From Psychroserpens sp. SPM9 (GTDB lineage: Bacteria; Bacteroidota; Bacteroidia; Flavobacteriales; Flavobacteriaceae), in the NCBI RefSeq assembly GCF_025153525.1, contig NZ_JANZNR010000001.1, positions 744,001 through 808,000 of the forward strand: a stretch of 64,000 nucleotides of DNA. The letters are read 5' to 3'. The stretch's first letter is position 1; every line of letters starts with the position of its first letter. The notes below the pieces were generated by a model. That model saw only the letters and a list, made by a program, of their open reading frames with translations, was not told where the DNA came from and did no database searches. A program made the position numbers and the translations under genes. Of the stretch, positions 47,539-61,198 are shown in pieces.

Positions 47539-47612
47539 TCCTCCTTAGCTCAGTTGGTTAGAGCATCTGACTGTTAATCAGAGGGTCCTTGGTTCGAGCC
47601 CAAGAGGAGGAG
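47539..47612 (+). tRNA. tRNA-Asn(GTT)
   Basis: Clear cloverleaf: acceptor TCCTCCT/AGGAGGA, D arm GCTC...GAGC, anticodon arm CTGAC-TGTTAAT-CAG with GTT, T arm CTTGG-TTCGAGC-CCAAG, discriminator G, no CCA. It has its own promoter and terminator, so it should be functional. Its 3' half is overlapped by the end of the serine recombinase gene on the other strand. Confidence 0.97.
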
Positions 47613-49131
47613 CTTTCTTAGACTTCCCGTCATTTTTGACGGGATTTTTTATTTCTAATCTCTTGAAAACCTTATTTTTATTAAGGATGAGCGCAATGAA
47701 AGAATCTAATTTTACGGTTCGATACTTATTTTTAAAATAAATCAGTTTTTCAGGAAATATCGAACCGGTAATCTTTTTTTTGATGTTCGCTGGTGATGAT
47801 TTGTAGAGTTTGTCAATACCATGCATGAATGATATTCCTAGTTTCAAATACTCCTCTAGATTCTTACTCAGACTTTCTATTCTAGCTTTTTCTGCCTTAA
47901 GGTCATTAAGCTTTTTTTGAGTCTTCCCTTTCATGCTGTTGTACGTTCCAACATCGATAAGATCATCAAAAAACTTATCCTCAATAGATTCCATTCGGTT
48001 ACTTAATTTTTTGAGATCCAACCCAATCTGTCTAATACGTAAATCTCTTGATTTTTGTTCACCACTAAATGTCTCCTCTAGTATTTCTTTGTAGAGCTCC
48101 AACACATCTTGTTTTATTACAAGCTCACTCAATAAGTCTTCATAAAGTTTATTGACCTCATCAGCTTTATACCTTTCTTTACATTTCGGCTGACAATGAT
48201 AATAAAAGTGTCTTTTACCATTTCTACCTTTAGATGCACTTCCTGTTAATGACCTTCCACAGTTTTTGCATAACAAATGTCCTCGTAGTGGTAACTTTTC
48301 ATCAATCTCTGAAAACTTATGAATCTTAGCTTTATGCTTTCCTGATATTATACGTTGAACAGTGTCGAATGTATCTTCATCAATAATAGCTGGATGTAAA
48401 CCATTAACAATGACCTCATCGTCCTTCTTCCATTCCTTTATCAATATCTTGCCACAATAGACTGGATTCTTAAGCATATTGAGCATACTCTGCTTGGTAA
48501 TCTTTAAGCCTTTATCGTAATACTTTTTCCTAACTTCTTCAGCTGACAAAACACCCTTGGAATAATCTATAAACGCTTTTCTAATAACATCAGATACTCT
48601 ATTATTAAAAGTTAAAGTTGCCTTTCCGTTTTCATTTCGATAGTTTTTATAACCATAAGGTGCCATTCCAACAAAACATCCTTCTTTCATGGCTCTTCGT
48701 AACCCTTCCTTGGTTCTTATGCTATTCTTATCATTTTCAACTTCTGGAATTACCAAATAGACAGCTAACATAACCTTAGAATCTGGTTGTGATAAATCCA
48801 AGGGTTGCTCGATAGCATTAACCTCAATACCTAGATTTTTGAATTCTCGAATAACTCTATACGCTTCCTCTTGATTTCTACTAAATCTATCCCATCTTGT
48901 GAATAATAGACAATCAATCGTTTTTCTATTTGCTTTGATGTAAGATGTTAGTTCTTTGAAGGCTGGTCTATCAAAGTTTTTAGCTGAATAATCTTCCTTG
49001 AAATGGCGAAGTATATTTATATTTTTATGTTGACAATAAAATTCCAGCACACTCTTTTGATGAGGTAAACTAAAACCTTTGTTGGCCTGCTCATCAGTTG
49101 AAACTCTGGTATATATTATTGCGTTTGGCAT
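47578..49131 (-). CDS. Large serine recombinase (site-specific integrase)
   Basis: Catalytic domain at the N-terminus (AIIYTRVSTDEQANKGFSL, with the nucleophilic Ser, and TRWDRFSRN), the recombinase domain, and a zinc ribbon (CKNCGRSLTGSASKGRNG...C...C). A long coiled coil follows (residues about 370-440). 517 aa. The last residues, KKAPPLGLEPRTL, are the antisense translation of tRNA-Asn, and the preceding codons read through its terminator. The gene therefore uses host tRNA DNA for its stop codon, marking the left end of an integrated element. Confidence 0.93.
   Translation of the reverse strand: MPNAIIYTRVSTDEQANKGFSLPHQKSVLEFYCQHKNINILRHFKEDYSAKNFDRPAFKELTSYIKANRKTIDCLLFTRWDRFSRNQEEAYRVIREFKNLGIEVNAIEQPLDLSQPDSKVMLAVYLVIPEVENDKNSIRTKEGLRRAMKEGCFVGMAPYGYKNYRNENGKATLTFNNRVSDVIRKAFIDYSKGVLSAEEVRKKYYDKGLKITKQSMLNMLKNPVYCGKILIKEWKKDDEVIVNGLHPAIIDEDTFDTVQRIISGKHKAKIHKFSEIDEKLPLRGHLLCKNCGRSLTGSASKGRNGKRHFYYHCQPKCKERYKADEVNKLYEDLLSELVIKQDVLELYKEILEETFSGEQKSRDLRIRQIGLDLKKLSNRMESIEDKFFDDLIDVGTYNSMKGKTQKKLNDLKAEKARIESLSKNLEEYLKLGISFMHGIDKLYKSSPANIKKKITGSIFPEKLIYFKNKYRTVKLDSFIALILNKNKVFKRLEIKNPVKNDGKSKKAPPLGLEPRTL
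47625..47644 (+). terminator. Terminator of tRNA-Asn
   Basis: Perfect 8-bp inverted repeat TCCCGTCA / TGACGGGA with a 4-nt loop followed by TTTTTT. It lies inside the coding region of the serine recombinase on the other strand. Confidence 0.9.
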
Positions 49132-50782: not shown

Positions 50783-52975
50783 ATGGAAAACAAAAATATA
50801 ATTATCAATGATATAGCAATCGGCAAAAAGGAAGAAGATTTATTGAATTACTATCCGTACGCTGAAAAAATACAAAGTGTCATACAAGGTTATGCTAATA
50901 ATCCAGAGCCTTTGACTATAGGAATATATGGTAAATGGGGGGCTGGTAAAAGTTCGCTTTTAAATCTCATTGAAAGGCATATTGAGATGTTTCACAAGGA
51001 CAAAGATGACAAGCCATATATAAAATTTCATTACAACCCTTGGATATACCAAACTAAAGAAGAGATGCTTTATGATTTCTTTGAAACACTAACACGAAAA
51101 TTGGTTTACAGTGGTAATGATACATTAAAGAAAGCTGGAAAATTCATCAAAAAATATAGCAAGTATCTAAAAGCTGTAAAATTATCTGCATCAGTTGGTG
51201 TTCCAAAAATATTCAACGCTGGCATTTCGGTTGAACCATACGAGATACTTAAGAGGCTTGGTGAAGATTTAGAAGGTGAAGAAAAAAGCTTAAATGAACT
51301 TAAAAAACAAATAGATGATATTCTAAAAGAATCAGATAAAAAGATTATAATTTTTATTGATGACGTTGATAGGTTGGATAAGGACGAAATATTTACATTA
51401 TTCAAATTAATCAAAATAAATGCAGACTTTAAGAATCTGATTTTCATTATATGTCTTGACCAAGAATATGTCGCTAAGGCTATACATCATAGATATGGAA
51501 ATGATGAGAAATCTGGCAAAGACTTCTTAGAGAAAATAATAAATATTCCTTTAGAGTTACCATTAATTGAGGAAGCAGATTTAGACCGCTTTGTTAAAGA
51601 GAAAATAAAACCGATTCTATCAAGTAAAAAGATTAAAGAGGCGGATTTAAAAGAATTATATGACAGTCTAAGTGGGGGTTACTTCAGTTCTCCTAGAGAA
51701 GTTGTACGTGTAATAAATTCCTTTGCATTTTCATTCTATGCGATTGGAGATGAAGTTAATGTACATGATTTATTTTGGATTGAGTATCTGAAGGTTAAGT
51801 ATATAAAGACTTATAATAGTATTAAAGATTATGCTAGTAGAAGTGGTATAAAAACTAATATGCTTTTTATAGATAAAATAGATTTTAATAGTCCATTCGC
51901 AAAAGATAAAAACGAGACAGGTTTCAGAAAAGATTTAATGGATAAGCATAAAGAATCATATCCAATTATTAATTTTTTATTTCCAATGATTAGAACAGGA
52001 ACCGTTTCAGCATATCAAACTCCAAAAATTAAACCTACAAATGTATTAGATGCAGAATTACGCATTAATCATATGAATCATTTTGAAAAATATTTCTCTT
52101 TTCATACAAAAGGTAAAATTTCAGAATTAATGTTTTCAAATTTTAAGGCATTAATAAATTCAGACAAAGATAATGAGGCATTAGAAATTATGCATAGAAT
52201 GATACAGAATACTGGAGAATGGAAAATAGTGTATCGAATTTCATCCGAAATTGAAGTATTATCTGATGAGCTTCATGATAAGTTTGTTTGGTTTTTAATT
52301 AAACATATTAATGAGTTTAAAGGAAGGTCAGACACTAAACCATTCAACATAGAGATTGTTCAAAGTATCGCAAAAAAGCTTGTTGAAAAGCGAGACGAGA
52401 AAAAGAAACTTATTATTTCTATACCTGATGAATTAGACTATTTGCAAACCTGCTGGTATTTAGGAGTATTTACCTATGATGGAAATGAAATCGAATACAT
52501 GGAAGAGATTGAGAAGAAACTGATTGCCAAAGCAAAAACTATTGAAAACCATCCATTTTTTAAAGATAGAAATGTAGCTAAAATGACTATGGATATATGG
52601 TCTAGGTTGGAGTTTGATGAGTTTCAAGAATATATATTACAGTATTTGAATTCTGAAGATAACATAGTATCATTTATTAGAAGCTTTACTTATCTGTGGA
52701 ATGGAACTATTAATGGTGTGTTTAAAGAAGAAAATTATCAGTACATATCAAATGTTCTAGGTCTAGATTGTAATTTAATTTTTGATAAGATAATAAGGGT
52801 ATTGCCAGAATATCAAGACAACAATGACCCAGACCAAATCGAGATTAATTGGAGTGAATACGATGGTAATTCTAATGCACAAAACATTTTACAATTTATT
52901 TATTGGCATTTGAAAAGTAATATAAAAGATGGTATTGACAATGAAGATGATGGTGCTCCGATTTATATAAATTAA
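50783..52975 (+). CDS. KAP-family P-loop NTPase
   Basis: Walker A is IYGKWGAGKSSLLN (residues about 48-61) and Walker B is KIIIFIDDVDRLDKDE. FIICLDQEYVAKAI and GKDFLEKIINIPLELP are typical KAP blocks. The usual membrane insertion of KAP proteins is not obvious; the region between the Walker motifs is only weakly hydrophobic. The C-terminal 350 residues are helical and unrecognised. 730 aa. KAP NTPases occur in defence islands, which fits here, but no role is proven. Confidence 0.85.
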   Translation: MENKNIIINDIAIGKKEEDLLNYYPYAEKIQSVIQGYANNPEPLTIGIYGKWGAGKSSLLNLIERHIEMFHKDKDDKPYIKFHYNPWIYQTKEEMLYDFFETLTRKLVYSGNDTLKKAGKFIKKYSKYLKAVKLSASVGVPKIFNAGISVEPYEILKRLGEDLEGEEKSLNELKKQIDDILKESDKKIIIFIDDVDRLDKDEIFTLFKLIKINADFKNLIFIICLDQEYVAKAIHHRYGNDEKSGKDFLEKIINIPLELPLIEEADLDRFVKEKIKPILSSKKIKEADLKELYDSLSGGYFSSPREVVRVINSFAFSFYAIGDEVNVHDLFWIEYLKVKYIKTYNSIKDYASRSGIKTNMLFIDKIDFNSPFAKDKNETGFRKDLMDKHKESYPIINFLFPMIRTGTVSAYQTPKIKPTNVLDAELRINHMNHFEKYFSFHTKGKISELMFSNFKALINSDKDNEALEIMHRMIQNTGEWKIVYRISSEIEVLSDELHDKFVWFLIKHINEFKGRSDTKPFNIEIVQSIAKKLVEKRDEKKKLIISIPDELDYLQTCWYLGVFTYDGNEIEYMEEIEKKLIAKAKTIENHPFFKDRNVAKMTMDIWSRLEFDEFQEYILQYLNSEDNIVSFIRSFTYLWNGTINGVFKEENYQYISNVLGLDCNLIFDKIIRVLPEYQDNNDPDQIEINWSEYDGNSNAQNILQFIYWHLKSNIKDGIDNEDDGAPIYIN

Positions 52976-52977
52976 GA

Positions 52978-53142
52978 TTATTGTATCACATGATACTTAT
53001 CCGCAGCCTCTCTATTGACATTTGGGTCGTATTTCTAGTAGTTTTCTGTTGAAGTTATAAAACGATGTCTGGACTTTCTTTGAGCTGTTCTTAAATCATC
53101 ATTTTGTGTCTAAAGTGCAATTACCGAAGCCACGGAGCGGTT
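52978..53142 (-). pseudogene. Remnant of a tyrosine recombinase C-terminus
   Basis: Read on the minus strand, the DNA gives RSVASVIAL, stop, TQNDDLRTAQRKSRHRFITS, TENY, stop, KYDPNVNREAADKYHVIQ, stop. This matches the end of flavobacterial tyrosine recombinases (compare AGHRFISSTERY in the gene at 61856). The Arg, His-x-x-Arg-like and Tyr positions are visible. Two in-frame TAG codons and lack of any upstream domain show decay. It starts 2 nt after the KAP stop codon. Confidence 0.7.
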
Positions 53143-53152
53143 TTACTTTATC

Positions 53153-53179
53153 ATATGTTCATCATAATCATGAACATAT
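53153..53179. repeat. Perfect inverted repeat in the 53143-53534 gap
   Basis: 10-bp arms ATATGTTCAT / ATGAACATAT with a 7-nt loop. It has no T run, so it is more like an operator or an old element end than a terminator. The rest of the gap (to 53534) is AT-rich; a TATATTTG -7-type box at about 53510 suits the toxin-antitoxin operon. Confidence 0.5.
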
Positions 53180-53534
53180 TACCTATTGATTAGGAACTTA
53201 AAATTTCTAGCATTAATTTAATAATCAATTGTAATGTTGTTAGATCTGTTTTATTTAATTGCTCTATAATCTTCGATAATACATAATATAATTTTGCCAT
53301 TGATAGTCATGGGGTTTATTTTTTAAAGGGTTTAGCCTTTTATTATTTATGTATTTATTTTACTATGAAATCCTAGAAAGTAAAGTCTTTATAGAAAATT
53401 AATTAGCTGGTGTTTGATTTCTATAAAACCAAATCACATCTACCGCCTCAATATTGATAGGTTTTTTACGTTAGAAATCTTAACTTTATACTATATCTAT
53501 ATAAAATGTATATTTGGGTTATACTAGAAATATT

Positions 53535-53774
53535 ATGGGAATATTAGAACTTAGAAAAAAATGGATGAAGTCAATTAAGACTGTTGATGATCGTTTCTTG
53601 CTGATGGTAGACGCTCTCTATGAAGGTTACTTTAAAAATGAAGTGGTAGCTTACCACCCAAATGGACAGCCTATGACCCGTCAGGAGTATAAGATGGCCT
53701 TAGATACTGCCGAAGCCCAGATTGAAAAAGGAGATTTTATTTCTGCTGATGACTTTGAGCGTGAAGAAGACTAA
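53535..53774 (+). CDS. Putative antitoxin
   Basis: 79-residue protein from ATG 53535 (MGILELRKKWMKSIKTVDDR; the in-frame TTG at 53514 is less likely). It is helical, with an acidic C-terminus (FISADDFEREED) as in antitoxins that wrap the toxin. Its stop codon overlaps the toxin start in a TAATG junction. Type II antitoxin role is inferred from this partner. Confidence 0.75.
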   Translation: MGILELRKKWMKSIKTVDDRFLLMVDALYEGYFKNEVVAYHPNGQPMTRQEYKMALDTAEAQIEKGDFISADDFEREED

Positions 53775-54055
53775 TGGCTGATAAGATCAAAAATGTTGTT
53801 TGGACTCGCCAAGCAAGAGAATCTCTCAATGCAATCCTTGACTATCGGTATAGAGATATACCAACGGCACGAAAGATAGTGCGTAAAGATATCATCACCT
53901 CTTCAAAAGAAATTGTGTTTGCAGAGCAATTTCAAAAAGATGAGATTTTTCCTGAGTACAGAAGAATAGTGGTTCGGGATTATAAAGTACTTTACAAGAT
54001 GGACAATAGCACCGCATATATACTGAATGTTGTCTGCACAAAGGCAAAAAAATAA
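53774..54055 (+). CDS. RelE/ParE-family toxin
   Basis: 93-residue ParE/RelE-fold protein: VVWTRQARESLNAILDYRY at the start, then FPEYRRIVVRDYKVLYKMDN, typical central strands. ParE-like rather than RelE-like because no catalytic His/Arg set for mRNA cleavage can be picked out. It is coupled to the antitoxin by a one-base overlap. Confidence 0.85.
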   Translation: MADKIKNVVWTRQARESLNAILDYRYRDIPTARKIVRKDIITSSKEIVFAEQFQKDEIFPEYRRIVVRDYKVLYKMDNSTAYILNVVCTKAKK

Positions 54056-54969: not shown

Positions 54970-55989
54970 ATGGGAATATCATTAAAAACACATAAAATTC
55001 TTTGGGGAAAATCAGGTAATAAATGCTCATTTCCTGATTGTAAAATAGATTTAGTTATGGATGAGAGTGAAACAGATGACCCTTCTATCATTGGCGAAGA
55101 GGCGCATATCGTTGCTCGAAAAAAAAACGGACCAAGAGGTGAATCAGAATTAACTGGAGAACAGCGTGATAGATATAATAATTTGATTTTGCTATGTAGT
55201 ATTCATCATAAGTTAGTAGATGATCAGAAAAACAAATATACAATTGATATATTAAATCAATATAAGAGAGAACATGAACATTGGGTAAGCCAAAATCTCT
55301 CACTTGATAAAATAAAAGAACGTGATGAAATTATCTATGCAGGATATATTGATACAATTATTGAACTTGCGGATGTCAATTCTTGGAAAGCTTGGACATC
55401 TTATGTTTTTGGAGGAAGTTCACCCACTATGAATAATAAAACCATAAGAAATCTTCGAAAATTAATAGAATTTATTTTATCGAGAGTTTGGCCAAAAAGA
55501 TATCCTAAATTAGAAATTGCAATAATTAATTTCAAAAATGTAACTAATGAATTTCTTTCTGTGTTTGATAAATATGTAGAAAGGGACAGATCGTCAAGTA
55601 AAGGAAAAGAAGATTTCATGGTTTATACTGAGAAATTTTATAGAATAGGAGATTGGGATACTGAAAGGTATAATGATCTTTTAAATAAGTATAAATATCA
55701 TTGTTTATTAGTAGAAGATTTACTTTTAGAAATGACACGAGCAATAAATCATATTTTTGATTTAGTTCGCTTACACTTATTTCCAAGTTTTAGAATTAAT
55801 GAAGGTGTATTATTGATAGAAATTGGTCCTTTCTCAGATTTATCATGGAGAACATATAGAACTGAATATAAACAGGAAGAATTAGAAATTCTCTATCCTG
55901 GTCTTAGAAAGTTCATGGACATTAGAGAAAAAAGAGATCAAAGTAGAGGACAAGGTATTAACGAAGATTACTTCCCAAAAACCTATTAA
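54970..55989 (+). CDS. HNH endonuclease-like protein
   Basis: Residues 1-110 form an HNH unit with zinc Cys: KSGNKCSFPDCKIDLV, then IGEEAHIVARKKNGPRGESE and NLILLCSIHHKLVDDQ. This HNH form is the one seen in several nuclease effectors of defence systems. The C-terminal 220 residues are helical (LLVEDLLLEMTRAINHIFDL) and unrecognised; no SAVED domain is apparent. It ends 12 nt from the convergent TIR-STING gene. Confidence 0.8.
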   Translation: MGISLKTHKILWGKSGNKCSFPDCKIDLVMDESETDDPSIIGEEAHIVARKKNGPRGESELTGEQRDRYNNLILLCSIHHKLVDDQKNKYTIDILNQYKREHEHWVSQNLSLDKIKERDEIIYAGYIDTIIELADVNSWKAWTSYVFGGSSPTMNNKTIRNLRKLIEFILSRVWPKRYPKLEIAIINFKNVTNEFLSVFDKYVERDRSSSKGKEDFMVYTEKFYRIGDWDTERYNDLLNKYKYHCLLVEDLLLEMTRAINHIFDLVRLHLFPSFRINEGVLLIEIGPFSDLSWRTYRTEYKQEELEILYPGLRKFMDIREKRDQSRGQGINEDYFPKTY

Positions 55990-56001
55990 TAAAAGATTAT
56001 A

Positions 56002-57267
56002 CTAAAAATTATCAAATTCCTTCGTCTCCGAATGAAATTCCTCCCAAGTAATAAATTTTATAGTTTTGTTTATAAATTGCCTTAAATTATTATTTGTCTC
56101 CTCTTCTAGTTTATGCTTTAAAACTTTCATGAAATTCACTCTCTCTTTTTCCGATAAAAGTTCTATAATATCCTTATTGGAATTAAGCATTTGAATGGCA
56201 TCCAAAGAAATCGACATAGTAGTAGGAACATCATAAATAATACATTGTTTATTATCTACAGCGGAAAGACGTTTCTTAATATTCATCCCCATGTTCCTTG
56301 ATTTACCAGGCAGGTTATATCTGTCAGTAGACTTTTTCAAAAATGCTTTAATAATATCTGGATCGGCACCCTGGATTGAAGAAGGCTTAATGATCTTAAA
56401 TTGAATATCATCGCAAGTAGTTAAATAGGATACAAACTCTTGAATCTGAGGTTTTTTGTCAATCTCTTCTTGAACGGAGGCTGATATATTATTGGATACA
56501 ACATCAAAAATATTTTCAATTACAATTTTTAAAAAATTCTTGTAATAACCTATTGCTAATGATGTAGAGGGTAGAAAACCAATGTCGTAACCTTTAAAAG
56601 TCTTAACTATTCTTTTTTGAATCTTCTCTACTTGTAATTTAAAATCATTATAATCAAATTCCTTTTTTCTTTGCTCTTCACTTTCTATTTCCCTATCTGT
56701 GCCTTTATATTGGTATAATTCTAACCTGAACTTATTAGAATTATCGACATCATCGTCAGTTATTTCCTCTGTATCGTTAATGTTTTCTTTAAGGTCAGTA
56801 AAAAAGTCTTCAATAAAGTCTTTAGAATTATCATCAAAAAGAATAAAGCTTCGCTTTGCTCCAATACGACCTAAAAAAAGTCCAAATTCGAAAACAACAT
56901 TATGCCTCGTAGCAAGTGCTTTTTTGTATTTACCCGATTTATCTTTTCTGTACTGACTAACAATTTTGTCATCTGGAGAAAAAATAAAAATAGCAAAATC
57001 ATATATATCGGTAAAATTCTTTAACTGTTCAGCATTGTTAGCACTGCCGCCACTCGTTTTTGTTAATTGAAAAATCCCTTGGTGCCATGCATCGACCTCA
57101 AAAACCTCTTTATCAAAATATGATTGAGCCAGTTCTGAAATCCAAATAGATTCTGATACTGAACCTATGAAAACACTTGGCTTTCCAATTTCATCTATTT
57201 TCCCCTTTAGATTTTTGACAGCTTCATCATCTGGCAAATGTGGAAAATCATTATTATCCTCTCCCAT
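56002..57267 (-). CDS. TIR-STING effector (Cap12-like)
   Basis: Residues 30-175 are a TIR domain of the CAP12/Pycsar type: SVFIGSVSESIWISELAQ and the catalytic Glu region RHNVVFEFGLFLGRIGAKRS (E about 127). Residues about 230-415 match prokaryotic STING: GFLPSTSLAIGYYKNFLKIV at the start and IIYDVPTTMSISLDAIQM later. Known relatives bind a cyclic dinucleotide and then destroy NAD+. It is the last gene of the CD-NTase operon, 1 nt after the deaminase-like gene. Confidence 0.88.
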   Translation of the reverse strand: MGEDNNDFPHLPDDEAVKNLKGKIDEIGKPSVFIGSVSESIWISELAQSYFDKEVFEVDAWHQGIFQLTKTSGGSANNAEQLKNFTDIYDFAIFIFSPDDKIVSQYRKDKSGKYKKALATRHNVVFEFGLFLGRIGAKRSFILFDDNSKDFIEDFFTDLKENINDTEEITDDDVDNSNKFRLELYQYKGTDREIESEEQRKKEFDYNDFKLQVEKIQKRIVKTFKGYDIGFLPSTSLAIGYYKNFLKIVIENIFDVVSNNISASVQEEIDKKPQIQEFVSYLTTCDDIQFKIIKPSSIQGADPDIIKAFLKKSTDRYNLPGKSRNMGMNIKKRLSAVDNKQCIIYDVPTTMSISLDAIQMLNSNKDIIELLSEKERVNFMKVLKHKLEEETNNNLRQFINKTIKFITWEEFHSETKEFDNF

Positions 57268-57268
57268 C

Positions 57269-58042
57269 TTATTTAATTTTTGATTTGTAAAACTCTATAG
57301 CCTTAATATAAATATTCTCATTTTCCTTAAACTTGACTGAGTAGTTTAGAAAGACCTCTTCTGCTTTTAAGTAAATAAGCCTCGCTTCTTCAGATGCTAA
57401 GAATTTCGCTAAAATTTTCTCTTCATCTTCACTTAGAAACTCATGATACTTTTCGTCAAGCTCTGCACAAAAAGAGATATTGGACGCTTGTGAAATCACC
57501 TGTCTTGGATAAGGCTCGAAACCTCCTATTGGTGTTGTATCTATAGCTAGTCTTTCAAATGCCTTGCTGTAAGCAACATCTCGTTGACCATAAACAACCC
57601 TTTTTACAGCAGTCATGGTCATCATTCCTGCACACATCACACATGGTTCTAAAGTAGTATATATTGAATAATCCTTGAGGTTAAAAATTCTTGTTTCCTC
57701 TAAGTAACTAGTTATTGCTCTAACCTCTCCGTGCTGAGTAGCATTATCAGTTGAGTTTATGCAATTAAGTCCATAATGCACTGGGATATTTTCTTTATCT
57801 ACCAATAACGCCCCAATATTATATCCTCTACGTTCACGTCTTGGAATACTATCAGGCTGCCAATCTGCATAGACTAAACTGTAAATCAATAGAGAATGGA
57901 TATCATCTACTTCTTGTTGAATATCGCTTACTTTTTTCACTTTGAGAACTGGTTTTATAATTTTATCGGATAATGCCTTTGAGGAATCACACCCCAAATT
58001 TAAAAGTAAAAAACAGGCACAGACATAAATAATTCTATTCAT
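57269..58042 (-). CDS. Nucleoside/nucleotide deaminase-family lipoprotein
   Basis: Zinc deaminase core of the TadA/cytidine-deaminase fold: QHGEVRAI (His 104, Glu 106) and LEPCVMCAGMM (Cys 134, Cys 137), all catalytic positions intact. The N-terminus MNRIIYVCACFLLLNLGCDS has a good lipobox (Cys 18), which is odd because these enzymes are cytoplasmic. The C-terminal 100 residues are helical and unknown. It lies 15 nt after the membrane-protein gene and 1 nt before TIR-STING. Substrate unknown. Confidence 0.8.
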   Translation of the reverse strand: MNRIIYVCACFLLLNLGCDSSKALSDKIIKPVLKVKKVSDIQQEVDDIHSLLIYSLVYADWQPDSIPRRERRGYNIGALLVDKENIPVHYGLNCINSTDNATQHGEVRAITSYLEETRIFNLKDYSIYTTLEPCVMCAGMMTMTAVKRVVYGQRDVAYSKAFERLAIDTTPIGGFEPYPRQVISQASNISFCAELDEKYHEFLSEDEEKILAKFLASEEARLIYLKAEEVFLNYSVKFKENENIYIKAIEFYKSKIK

Positions 58043-58057
58043 AAAAATAACATCTAA

Positions 58058-58501
58058 CTAAAGTATTCCAGCAATTTTCAACCCAATAACCAAAATTAGA
58101 ACAAGAGCAAAAGGGATGTAGAACCACCGTATTGAACCAGAAAACATTACGCTAAACAATTTTTCTTCAATAAAACCCTCCGTACTCTCAGGGTCTAAAT
58201 TAAACCTTGTTCTGTCTTTTGCCTTGGGGTCAGCAATTACAACTTCATATAACTTTCTAAAAACCCTCTCTTGCCTTAGATAATAGGAGTCCAGCCACCA
58301 AAAAGGAATTAAAACCCCTATCATTATAAGCAAATAATATATACCATTGATATTGCTTAAAATTGAATCTTTGCCAAAAGCTATTAAGGCTGACATTAGA
58401 GTCATAGTCCATCCTTTTATTAAAAAGGAATTATTAGCCATTCTCCCTATGACTGACTGTATGAGGTCTAGTTCTTTGTGTAAGCTTAAATCTTCATCCA
58501 T
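58058..58501 (-). CDS. Small membrane protein in CBASS operon
   Basis: 147 residues. A helical start (LHKELDLIQSVIGRMANNSF) leads into membrane segments (LIKGWTMTLMSALIAFG; YYLLIMIGVLIPFWWLDSYY), a soluble loop with QERVFRKLYEVV, and a final pair at the C-terminus (WFYIPFALVLILVIGLKIAG). Proteins with IQxVIxRMAxNSF followed by KGW exist in many bacteria without known function. It could be a membrane effector or an accessory protein. Confidence 0.7.
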   Translation of the reverse strand: MDEDLSLHKELDLIQSVIGRMANNSFLIKGWTMTLMSALIAFGKDSILSNINGIYYLLIMIGVLIPFWWLDSYYLRQERVFRKLYEVVIADPKAKDRTRFNLDPESTEGFIEEKLFSVMFSGSIRWFYIPFALVLILVIGLKIAGIL

Positions 58502-58588
58502 AAGAACAAATTGTTTTATGTTAATTTATATAAAGATAAGAAATCTCTATATTGAAAAAACGTAAACCTTGTGTATTTAAAATAATTA

Positions 58589-59092
58589 TTAAATATCTAC
58601 CTCTATAGATTTTATCTTCTCTGATTCATGATTAACATTTTGTAATCTGTGATCTATATGTGGGTGTTCCCACTTACCCGTGATTTCATATAACTCATAA
58701 TAGACAAACCATTCCAGAGTCCATGGAACAATTGTATTAAATAGATTGTGTTTCTTAAAATTCCAATTAAGATCATCTGCTTCAGAGTGATAAAGGCATA
58801 GACTATTGTCCTCAGGAAACATGTGAATTTCCTCATTATATTGAATCTCTGGATCAATTACATAGACTCTTGGAGGTTGAAATCCGTCATAAACTATCCT
58901 AAACACGTAAGTAATGGATAGATCAGTTGGCTTAGTTTCTCCAGTACAAATAAGTTTTCCCTTTTTTAATGAACAATCAAGAAAATTATAATGCTTCTTT
59001 ATTAATCTTTTTTGAGTGTTAAGGGTGTGTGTTTTGAGATTATCAAAATGGTTGTTATTAAACCTGTTTTTATGAAACCTTCTATTGGCCAT
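58589..59092 (-). CDS. E2-like ubiquitin-conjugating protein of short type II CBASS
   Basis: 167 residues. The E2 core has YVFRIVYDGFQPPRVYVIDP, then IHMFPEDNSLCLYHSEADDL with the probable catalytic Cys 99, and VPWTLEWFVYYELYEITGKW near the C-terminus, the usual ending of bacterial CBASS E2 proteins. No E1 or JAB gene is present. Stand-alone E2 proteins act on the cyclase in short type II CBASS. Overlaps the CD-NTase gene by 11 nt. Confidence 0.85.
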   Translation of the reverse strand: MANRRFHKNRFNNNHFDNLKTHTLNTQKRLIKKHYNFLDCSLKKGKLICTGETKPTDLSITYVFRIVYDGFQPPRVYVIDPEIQYNEEIHMFPEDNSLCLYHSEADDLNWNFKKHNLFNTIVPWTLEWFVYYELYEITGKWEHPHIDHRLQNVNHESEKIKSIEVDI

Positions 59093-60143
59093 AATTTGTA
59101 TGTGGTTTGTGTTTCACACCTTCTGATGAGTTAATTTTACCATCTGAATCCGCATAAGCTGTACCACTCAATATTTTATTAGATACTGATTTTAATTGAG
59201 CTTCTTTAGCATCAGTATCCTCATCTTTACCTAGTGGAAACTTGTCTCCAAAATATTTTCTCCAAATTTTGCTGGCTCTGTTTTGATTCGGCTCATCATT
59301 AACAGCTTTTTCTGAGTCTTTTACAAAATCATCCAGATTAGATAAAAAATTGTTTTTTCTAGCTTCATCGTAGCTTTCAAAGAGATCATCGTAAGGTGTT
59401 GCGGGTACAATACATTCAAACGAGTTTTCTAAACTCTCTTGAATTTTAGCTAAAGTATCTTTTATTGCTACATCATCTCTGTCATTGTACTGAATATTAA
59501 TAGCAGCCAGAATGCACATCGCCAGGCCACTTGGCATTTTATTTCTTTTATAATCTCCCCAACCTTTAAGATATTTAACAATTCTTACTAATTGACCATT
59601 ATTATCTTTTTCATTCTTAAACCAGTCAACCACATCCTTTGGATCACACTCTTGCAAATCTTCATTCTTTACTGCTAATTGTGGATGTGACCAATCTTCA
59701 GGAAAATAATAAGCGGGGAGATCTATATGGTAATCAGCTTTATATATAACTCGTACGCACTTTTTCCTATGCTCAGGAGTAGTTGTAGTAACATCAGCTA
59801 CAGCATCCTTTATCCATTGTTGTAATGTCGTACCTGAAACACCAACTTCTCTTTTAAAATAAACTCCATCATCAACATCACACTCATCATCTTTTGTCAC
59901 TATGGTCGTCTTCATTTTGTAAGAACCTTGAATAAAAAATTCAGGATTATAATCTGGATGATTATCTTTAAAGTGGTTTCTTATTGCATCTCTAACCTTT
60001 TCTTTAGAGTCTTTTAGCTTATCATTTTTTGTTTTTGAAATTGTTAAATTTCCATTATAGTCATGGAATAATTTATTGCAGTTTGCCATCTTTAAAGTTT
60101 TTACAAGTTGTTCAATGACCATGCCATTGAATAGATATGACAT
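59082..60143 (-). CDS. DncV-like CD-NTase (CBASS cyclase)
   Basis: Nucleotidyltransferase with FFIQGSYKMKTT (Gly 73, Ser 74), DECDVDDGVYF (Asp 89 and 91) and YHIDLPAYYF (Asp 141): the complete active site. DVDDGVYF, DVVDWFKNE and VRIVKYLKGWGDYKR follow the order seen in Vibrio DncV. The protein is shorter (353 aa) than DncV. ATG 60089 (M19) is an alternative start. It makes a cyclic oligonucleotide; the product is not predictable here. The C-terminus (EGVKHKPHTNYGQ) is the likely E2 target. Confidence 0.88.
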   Translation of the reverse strand: MSYLFNGMVIEQLVKTLKMANCNKLFHDYNGNLTISKTKNDKLKDSKEKVRDAIRNHFKDNHPDYNPEFFIQGSYKMKTTIVTKDDECDVDDGVYFKREVGVSGTTLQQWIKDAVADVTTTTPEHRKKCVRVIYKADYHIDLPAYYFPEDWSHPQLAVKNEDLQECDPKDVVDWFKNEKDNNGQLVRIVKYLKGWGDYKRNKMPSGLAMCILAAINIQYNDRDDVAIKDTLAKIQESLENSFECIVPATPYDDLFESYDEARKNNFLSNLDDFVKDSEKAVNDEPNQNRASKIWRKYFGDKFPLGKDEDTDAKEAQLKSVSNKILSGTAYADSDGKINSSEGVKHKPHTNYGQ

Positions 60144-60280
60144 GGTAAAGAAGTTTATCAGTTATTTGTTAAAAGTTTTTATCTTAAACATGTATAATTG
60201 TCAGTTAAAAATTAATATTTATAATAATATGACTTATTGACATTCAGATTTTTATAACTTCCAGCAAAGAAATTATAAGC

Positions 60281-61198
60281 TCAATTTCTTTGCAACTCTA
60301 TTATCTCCCTTATATCTTTTGCTCCAACTATATTAGGATTCTTACGCAAAATATTATCAATATCCTTAACCACTTCATCAAATATATAATCAGGGTTCGG
60401 TTGCTTTTTAATTAATGTAATTGCTTCTATATATGTATCCATTGCATCGGAATCTCTACCAAGCATAATGAGTGCAAGACCTTTATTCGCCTTAACCCAG
60501 CCTAATTCGAACTCTGAAATTGATTTATCAGAATACTCGATACATTTATCATATTCACCATTTTCAAATTTTTTCCACCCCAATGCACCGAGCAATTCAG
60601 CTTTTTCTTGATTTGCAGACTTCTCTTTAACCGTTGTAGCTTCTGTTATAGCCACAACTTCTATACTTAAATTAATACCATTTAAAGCACTTGGGTTTTT
60701 AATACCTAAATACCATGTTCCAGATTTAATATCATCTATTCTAACGACTGCTTGTTTTGTGTTTTCAGCCATACCTTCAGGAAAATGCCTGTACTCACTT
60801 TTATCAAGAAATAAATTAAGATTACTACGATCAATCAAATAAACATCTGCCGATGCCTCTCCCTCAGGAACATCAATGGCTGAAATTGTACTTGAAGTTA
60901 TTCCTGTAGGGTCTGCAAGAATACCTCCAAGTTGAATAGCTAAATTCAAGTTCTTAGTTCCACTTTTACCAGCAGAGGTAGAGAAGCTATAATACCATTG
61001 AACTGTATTTGGTGGTAAGTCTATTTTAATATATGTCCGTGATTTACCTCCGAATTGCGATCTAGCACCTCCATTGATATATAAATCTCTACTTTCTACT
61101 AGCTGTTTTGTTTCTCTTACAATTTCAACCTCTTGAGCTAGTGTAACTTGAAATAATAAAAGTATAAGCAATTGTATGATAATCTTGTTTTTATTCAT
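60281..61198 (-). CDS. Secreted TPR protein of unknown role
   Basis: Signal peptide (MNKNKIIIQLLILLLFQVTLAQ), a roughly 150-residue beta-rich domain (RTYIKIDLPPNTVQWYYSFS, GTWYLGIKNPSALNGINL) and C-terminal TPR-like repeats (ALGWKKFENGEYDKCIEYSD, KGLALIMLGRDSDAMDTYIE). Probably periplasmic. It is upstream of the CBASS operon on the same strand with a 137-nt gap, so it may be an independent gene. Confidence 0.7.
   Translation of the reverse strand: MNKNKIIIQLLILLLFQVTLAQEVEIVRETKQLVESRDLYINGGARSQFGGKSRTYIKIDLPPNTVQWYYSFSTSAGKSGTKNLNLAIQLGGILADPTGITSSTISAIDVPEGEASADVYLIDRSNLNLFLDKSEYRHFPEGMAENTKQAVVRIDDIKSGTWYLGIKNPSALNGINLSIEVVAITEATTVKEKSANQEKAELLGALGWKKFENGEYDKCIEYSDKSISEFELGWVKANKGLALIMLGRDSDAMDTYIEAITLIKKQPNPDYIFDEVVKDIDNILRKNPNIVGAKDIREIIELQRN

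Follow-up and report, generated by a model that had tools for sequence, protein, structure and literature searches.

The 64,000-nucleotide stretch of the Psychroserpens sp. SPM9 genome studied here (contig NZ_JANZNR010000001.1, positions 744,001 to 808,000; referred to as the window) contains an operon that resembles a cyclic oligonucleotide-based antiphage signaling system (CBASS) and looks, from its gene content, composite. A pair of genes for a CdnB-type cGAS/DncV-like nucleotidyltransferase (CD-NTase) and an E2-like protein is followed by a separable cassette of three genes, encoding a small membrane protein, a deaminase and a TIR-STING protein. One fixed five-gene system is not suggested, because genes 3-5 recur in another genome (locus L131) without a cyclase or E2 gene, and genes 1 and 2 recur with CapV. 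The features of the operon are the following:

59082..60089, minus strand: gene 1, CdnB-type (DncV-like) CD-NTase, 335 amino acids from the corrected start (listed open reading frame to 60143)
58589..59092, minus strand: gene 2, E2-like protein, 167 amino acids, 11-nt overlap with the cyclase gene
58502..58588, no strand: 87-nt gap separating the CdnB-E2 pair from genes 3-5
58058..58501, minus strand: gene 3, small membrane protein, 147 amino acids, PADLOC PDC-M50A; opens the cassette
57269..58042, minus strand: gene 4, TadA/guanine-deaminase-like zinc deaminase, 257 amino acids
56002..57267, minus strand: gene 5, TIR-STING, 421 amino acids

The order, the shared strand and the gaps (-11, 87, 15 and 1 nt) agree with an original prediction made from the sequence, as do the profile assignments of a CBASS-type operon with a CD-NTase, a TIR-STING and an E2-like protein unaccompanied by E1 or JAB. 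The catalytic residues that it listed are all visible (GSY...DVDDG...IDLP in the cyclase, LCL in the E2-like protein, NVVFE in the TIR domain), and the deaminase motifs HGE and PCVMC are present as well. Its description of one five-gene unit holds for strand and spacing; it does not seem to hold for a fixed system, as genes 3-5 stand alone in L131. The gene set, which it called unusual, was not met in complete form elsewhere in the searches made, but an E2-like gene together with TIR-STING is not unique (L061, L076/L077). A search of 55900-60500 for the promoter pattern TTG...TAnnTTTG gave no match, and the 87-nt gap holds no -7 match. The idea that a promoter separates the two halves was dropped, the pattern search having given no evidence either way.

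Recurrence of the Cassette and of the CdnB-E2 Pair

Locus L131 lies in genome G651, which belongs to the same class and to another order. The genes for the PDC-M50A protein, the deaminase and TIR-STING keep the order and orientation of genes 3-5, with identities to the window proteins of 54%, 58% and 41% (E-value 4e-96 for the last), and are flanked by genes read from their sequence as uvrB and polA. The middle genes of the operon are thus conserved neighbors; as STING and CD-NTase are also assigned by profile, neither outcome named as refuting the original prediction occurred. The candidate explanation of genes 3 and 4 as filler was rejected on this synteny. The L131 cassette differs from that of the window by the lack of any cyclase or E2 match in 20 kb, by a deaminase in which no signal peptide was found, and by its STING lid motif (RPK).

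A STING-domain scan of genome contigs gave 32 loci, for which neighborhoods of up to five genes before and three after were printed. A cyclase-like gene (blastp) was present in 24 of these neighborhoods; the other eight are L049, L056, L068, L072, L073, L075, L078 and L079. For the TIR-STINGs of L049, L068, L072, L075 and L078, spread over Bacteroidota, Pseudomonadota and Myxococcota, no cyclase was found nearby or genome-wide with the three profiles used (SMODS, CdnE-like and DncV-like). The genome of L073 (G659) has SMODS matches elsewhere. Absence of a CD-NTase is to be read here as absence of a match to these three profiles, of which SMODS is blind to CdnE-like proteins in this setting; as controls, genome G000 matched SMODS and DncV-like, and G019 matched CdnE-like. 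G019, of the same order as the window, carries a cyclase 92% identical to one of Chryseobacterium soli, from which the order can be inferred to be Flavobacteriales. At L075, an adjoining amidase-like gene suggests, by its sequence, a phage.

Gene 1 matched PF21654 (2e-21) and the PADLOC Cyclase profile (5e-127), and scored 221 bits against the NCBIfam model 'CBASS cGAMP synthase', for which the cut-off is 150. With its motifs, it is a CD-NTase with an intact nucleotidyltransferase motif. The reading frame does extend to 60143, as first predicted, but the true start is probably 60089, 18 codons inside, because the Met at this position is the start in three of four relatives (alignment A7; the fourth listed frame is also longer) and the PADLOC Cyclase profile begins there. 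The nearest solved relative by sequence is PDB 7LJO (E-value 5e-100). This match includes the C-terminal NYG (...HTNYGQ in the window), a shared ending that, we assume, would suit an E2 partner. The 7LJO structure is BfCdnB, which, in the consulted part of PMC10442399, prefers GTP over ATP and yields 3'3'-cGA(MP) as main product; its lid-3 Asp238 falls, by our own residue count, in PYDDLF, a stretch common to the window cyclase. No relatives of the window cyclase were found in viral contigs.

Gene 2 was assigned by PADLOC E2 (1e-53), with a weak PDB match to the E2 protein 8HSB_B (2.7e-5); Pfam Prok-E2_A gave an E-value of only 0.061, below the cut-off, and NCBIfam gave no match. The candidate catalytic Cys is residue 98, in the LCL motif. 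An E2-like gene adjoins the cyclase and no ThiF (E1) or JAB match occurs among 19 genes scanned around the operon, which corresponds to an E2-only type II CBASS. The term 'short type II' is presumably a name for this E2-only form; the phrase was not found in the literature searched.

The same CdnB-E2 order, with the same 11-nt overlap, is found on Fibrella and Runella plasmids (L166 and L167; cyclase 46% and 41% identical, E2 34% and 35%). These CapV-CdnB-E2 loci have an upstream cGAMP-activated phospholipase effector and a second cyclase-like gene after E2, whereas the window has neither. No phospholipase match was obtained among the scanned genes upstream of the window pair; hence, the cassette of genes 3-5 is the nearest effector candidate. 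Related combinations include a Gloeocapsa locus (CapV, cyclase, E2/E1 and JAB-type genes), L061 (CdnB-E2-CdnE-TIR-STING) and L076/L077 (TIR-STING, DncV-like cyclase and E2). An E2 gene between two cyclases, or cyclase-like genes, may be a recurring design, as seen in L166, L167 and L061.

TIR-STING and Its Lid Motif

Gene 5 matched PF10137 (8.2e-17) and PF20300 prok_STING (2.2e-14), both above the cut-off, and the first fold match of its model (mean pLDDT 69) was to TIR-STING structures (9LMQ, E-value 2.3e-17). The protein is therefore a TIR-STING, a CAP12-type TIR domain with the Glu of NVVFE fused to STING, and provides the operon with the cyclic-nucleotide receptor domain of a CBASS effector. 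Two inserts are common to the window and L131 proteins (alignment A9), and the C-terminal end is also shared.

The Arg of the STING lid and the Asp of D-x-P are kept. The lid motif itself is R324-N-M in the window and R-N-F in L153, and its third residue is Tyr in L079. Class I bacterial STINGs carry RX(Y/F) and bind c-di-GMP, class II carry RXR and bind 3'3'-cGAMP (PMC8748872, consulted in part), and STINGs with neither motif are mentioned in the part of PMC10739871 consulted. By these partial accounts, R-N-M belongs to neither class. The assignment 'class II STING, hence cGAMP' was dropped in view of R-N-M in the window and R-N-F in L153.

A close counterpart is the CdnE-TIR-STING CBASS of Epilithonimonas lactis (L074) and Sphingobacterium faecium. 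The TIR-STING beside a CD-NTase, the domain order and the fold are the same. The window operon differs by a CdnB/DncV-like instead of a CdnE cyclase, by the presence of E2, by the addition of genes 3 and 4, and by a STING that has two inserts and a different lid motif. Viral contigs gave 34 TIR-STING loci, one of which, L091, had a blastp match to the STING queries; the L079 TIR-STING had no match in phages.

Membrane Protein and Deaminase of the Cassette

Gene 3 matched PADLOC PDC-M50A (1.2e-37) and no Pfam or NCBIfam family. By hydropathy, its product has two membrane segments (three in the L139 relative). When 296 genomes from the order of the window were searched, 11 gave a match, the window's own among them, and nine others were examined (L136-L144); G156 was left out (E-value 8e-4, internal stops). 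At eight of the nine loci, a TIR gene, mostly of ThsB type, adjoins the relative of gene 3, L144 being the one without. In viral contigs, all ten homologues adjoin a TIR-like gene. Of these ten, L158 and L159 are near-copies, the TIR gene of L165 lies on the opposite strand, and three TIR assignments depend on blastp E-values of 1e-7 to 1e-9. With a TIR gene next to its relatives at 18 of the 19 other loci examined, gene 3 looks like a TIR partner. In L136 (6875-10520), an LRR-Roc-COR-TIR protein gene overlaps the PDC-M50A gene, so that a ROCO-like protein has the same kind of membrane partner. On the viral contigs L161 and L162, the PDC-M50A/TIR pairs have neighboring genes that, judged from the sequence, resemble the Zot genes of filamentous phages.

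PADLOC already includes this family as the candidate system PDC-M50, whose B partner is matched by some of the adjoining TIR proteins. In the operon, M50A is present, no M50B match was found and the TIR partner is TIR-STING. Compared with PDC-M50 (A, B) and Thoeris-type loci, where the partners are TIR proteins, mostly of ThsB type, the TIR domain here is of CAP12 type and fused to STING, a deaminase lies in between and no ThsA-type gene is present. The operon does not read as Thoeris: ThsB and ThsA gave no match in genes 1-5 with Pfam or PADLOC (for gene 1, among the best 25 of 35 PADLOC matches).

Gene 4 matched PF00383 (3.7e-16) and shares the zinc-deaminase core of TadA and of guanosine and guanine deaminases. 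In contrast to these, it has HGE instead of HAE, a hydrophobic export-like N-terminus and about 100 extra C-terminal residues after the core, and it reaches only 53 bits against the NCBIfam TadA equivalog (cut-off 150), so that it is not a member of TadA. The original prediction of a deaminase-family lipoprotein stands as to the family. Its lipoprotein part is plausible but imperfect, since the lipobox pattern does not match (Asn at -3 of C18); it does match in the L153 orthologue. The window deaminase is probably exported. Foldseek matches of its low-confidence model add little to the sequence result.

Orthologues adjoin a STING gene in L131, in L079 (49% identical over 216 residues) and in L153 (43%). 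L079, a Verrucomicrobiota metagenome-assembled genome, has TIR-STING and then the deaminase, behind a terminase large-subunit gene. L153, in genome G1076, has the lipobox deaminase and then a 230-amino-acid TM-STING, on a contig whose end lies some 0.5 kb upstream of the deaminase gene. The window gene served as the seed; deaminase searches yielded the orthologues of G651 and G1076, and a STING search that of L079. Gene 4 looks like a STING partner because of these three loci; including the window, all four orthologues found outside one genus adjoin STING. Evidence against a strict link comes from four genomes of that genus (L132-L135), which carry solitary relatives (39-41% identical, signal-peptide-like N-terminus) and no STING match, and from 31 of the 32 STING loci, whose printed neighborhoods hold no deaminase match. 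The deaminase-linked STINGs were also considered as one clade, which is unsupported (three changes, a number not exceeded in 64 of 500 shuffles).

At an E-value of 1e-20 or less, the deaminase alignment A4 matched six of 296 genomes of the phylum, namely its own, G651 and the four of one genus. The wider profile A8, at 1e-25 or less, matched two of 198 genomes of the order of G651 (G651 and G1076) and, among 345 genomes of the class, only the window's own; the cassette is therefore rare. In its own order, the window deaminase had matches in 366 of 395 genomes. Its own gene aside, none was better than 2.2e-13 and none among the matches listed spanned the protein, and they are therefore taken as TadA-like. 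No match with 80% query coverage was found in plasmids (37 records) or, with the L079 protein as query, in phages (22 records). In viral contigs, a single-sequence query gave none and an alignment query gave ten partial matches, five with a TadA-like reading frame on scanning.

Proposed Mechanism and Alternatives

The reading we propose, to which we attach about an even chance, is that the operon is composite, lies on a mobile island and acts by abortive infection, with the CdnB-E2 pair driving the M50A-deaminase-TIR-STING cassette. Upon phage infection, CdnB with its E2 partner would produce a cyclic dinucleotide, 3'3'-cGAMP being the likeliest. This signal would be bound by the STING half of gene 5, the protein would assemble, and the TIR domain would cleave NAD+, so that the cell is killed or arrested. 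Genes 3-5 would act as a pre-formed effector cassette. Gene 3 may be the membrane partner of TIR, as a second, membrane-disrupting effector or as an anchor, possibly driven by the TIR product, and gene 4, probably exported and functionally tied to STING, may modify or clear signal nucleotides. The single strand, the gaps of 87, 15 and 1 nt, and L061, where CdnB-E2 is also followed by TIR-STING (though CdnE intervenes), speak for this scheme.

Several observations weigh against it. The lid R-N-M fits neither STING class described in the sources consulted, and the ligand is therefore uncertain. A deaminase that is exported would not come into contact with a STING in the cytosol, a signal peptide is absent from the L131 deaminase, and the window deaminase was modeled with low confidence (mean pLDDT 57). 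An HNH gene (54970-55989), convergent with the TIR-STING gene, matches PADLOC PDC-M68A, and the first ~130 residues of its product match PADLOC CBASS endonuclease effectors; it could be another effector. The G651 genome, 99% complete, gave no SMODS, CdnE-like or DncV-like match, and the window and L131 TIR-STINGs, which pair in the STING tree (support 99/98), sit there on long branches. The tree excludes L036, L073 and L080 as well as L056, L064 and L077, which are near-copies, and parts of it are unsure owing to the long branches of L034, L153 and others.

The cassette standing alone in L131, in a genome with no match to the cyclase profiles, also favors two independent systems placed head to tail: an effector-less CdnB-E2 pair and a self-sufficient deaminase-STING-TIR cassette that needs no CD-NTase and is triggered by a phage- or host-made nucleotide or by a phage protein. 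This is a serious possibility, if on balance doubtful. The 87-nt gap ahead of the cassette suits it, and the L079 genome (completeness not stated) likewise lacks a match to the three cyclase profiles. In the tree, the STING of the window belongs to ten grouped sequences (support 92/98), seven of which have no adjoining cyclase (L131, L079, L049, L068, L072, L075 and L078), but the same group includes L076, with its DncV-like cyclase and E2, and L091, with a CdnE-like one. Also against it, the window CdnB and E2 look intact, and the three profiles do not span every CD-NTase clade. In its favor, GGDEF gave no match in seven of ten genomes, among them the window genome, G651 and G655; it did match in G656, G659 and G660, which carry cyclase-less STINGs, so that host c-di-GMP is possible there. 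A bolder version, rather unlikely, would see stand-alone bacterial STING defense modules in which a dedicated, mostly exported deaminase replaces the CD-NTase. The deaminase would act on nucleotides outside the cytoplasm, STING would sense a nucleotide that the cell does not make (from lysing neighbors, imported or phage-made), and the window module would have been captured by CdnB-E2.

The deaminase could also be a passenger without any part in defense, as a housekeeping or salvage enzyme carried along with STING genes on islands. The solitary relatives in the one genus elsewhere in the phylum are consistent with this, but outside that genus the orthologues found adjoin STING in two phyla, in both gene orders and with both TIR- and TM-STING, which makes it improbable. 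Hardly credible is an ordinary CBASS with genes 3 and 4 as unrelated cargo between E2 and effector: the five-gene set has no second example in the searches, but the synteny of genes 3-5 in L131 contradicts cargo unless L131 is misassembled.

Bacterial STING is described, in sources consulted in part, as the receptor for the CD-NTase encoded next to it. Within the incomplete coverage of the literature, which includes PMC8748872, PMC10732462, PMC12424679, PMC12421889, PMC10442399 and PMC10739871, neither a deaminase-STING pair nor a PDC-M50A protein at a TIR-STING locus is described; the novelty of the deaminase-STING pairing is provisional. The deaminase to which the STING gene of the operon is linked is found again next to other STING genes, whether or not these have a cyclase, and the small membrane protein is linked to many kinds of TIR proteins. 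Two questions thereby become testable: how STINGs that lack a cyclase are activated, and whether NAD+ loss suffices for killing by TIR-STING or a membrane partner contributes.

Genomic Context

At 47539-49131, the likely integration site of the island that bears the operon, the gene of a large serine recombinase (47578-49131) and that of tRNA-Asn (47539-47613) overlap. Next come genes of XRE, KAP-NTPase, ParE and HNH type. Because of this overlap and this gene content, the region is probably an integrated island. The KAP-family NTPase and the ParE-type toxin gene lie at 50783-54055 of the same island.

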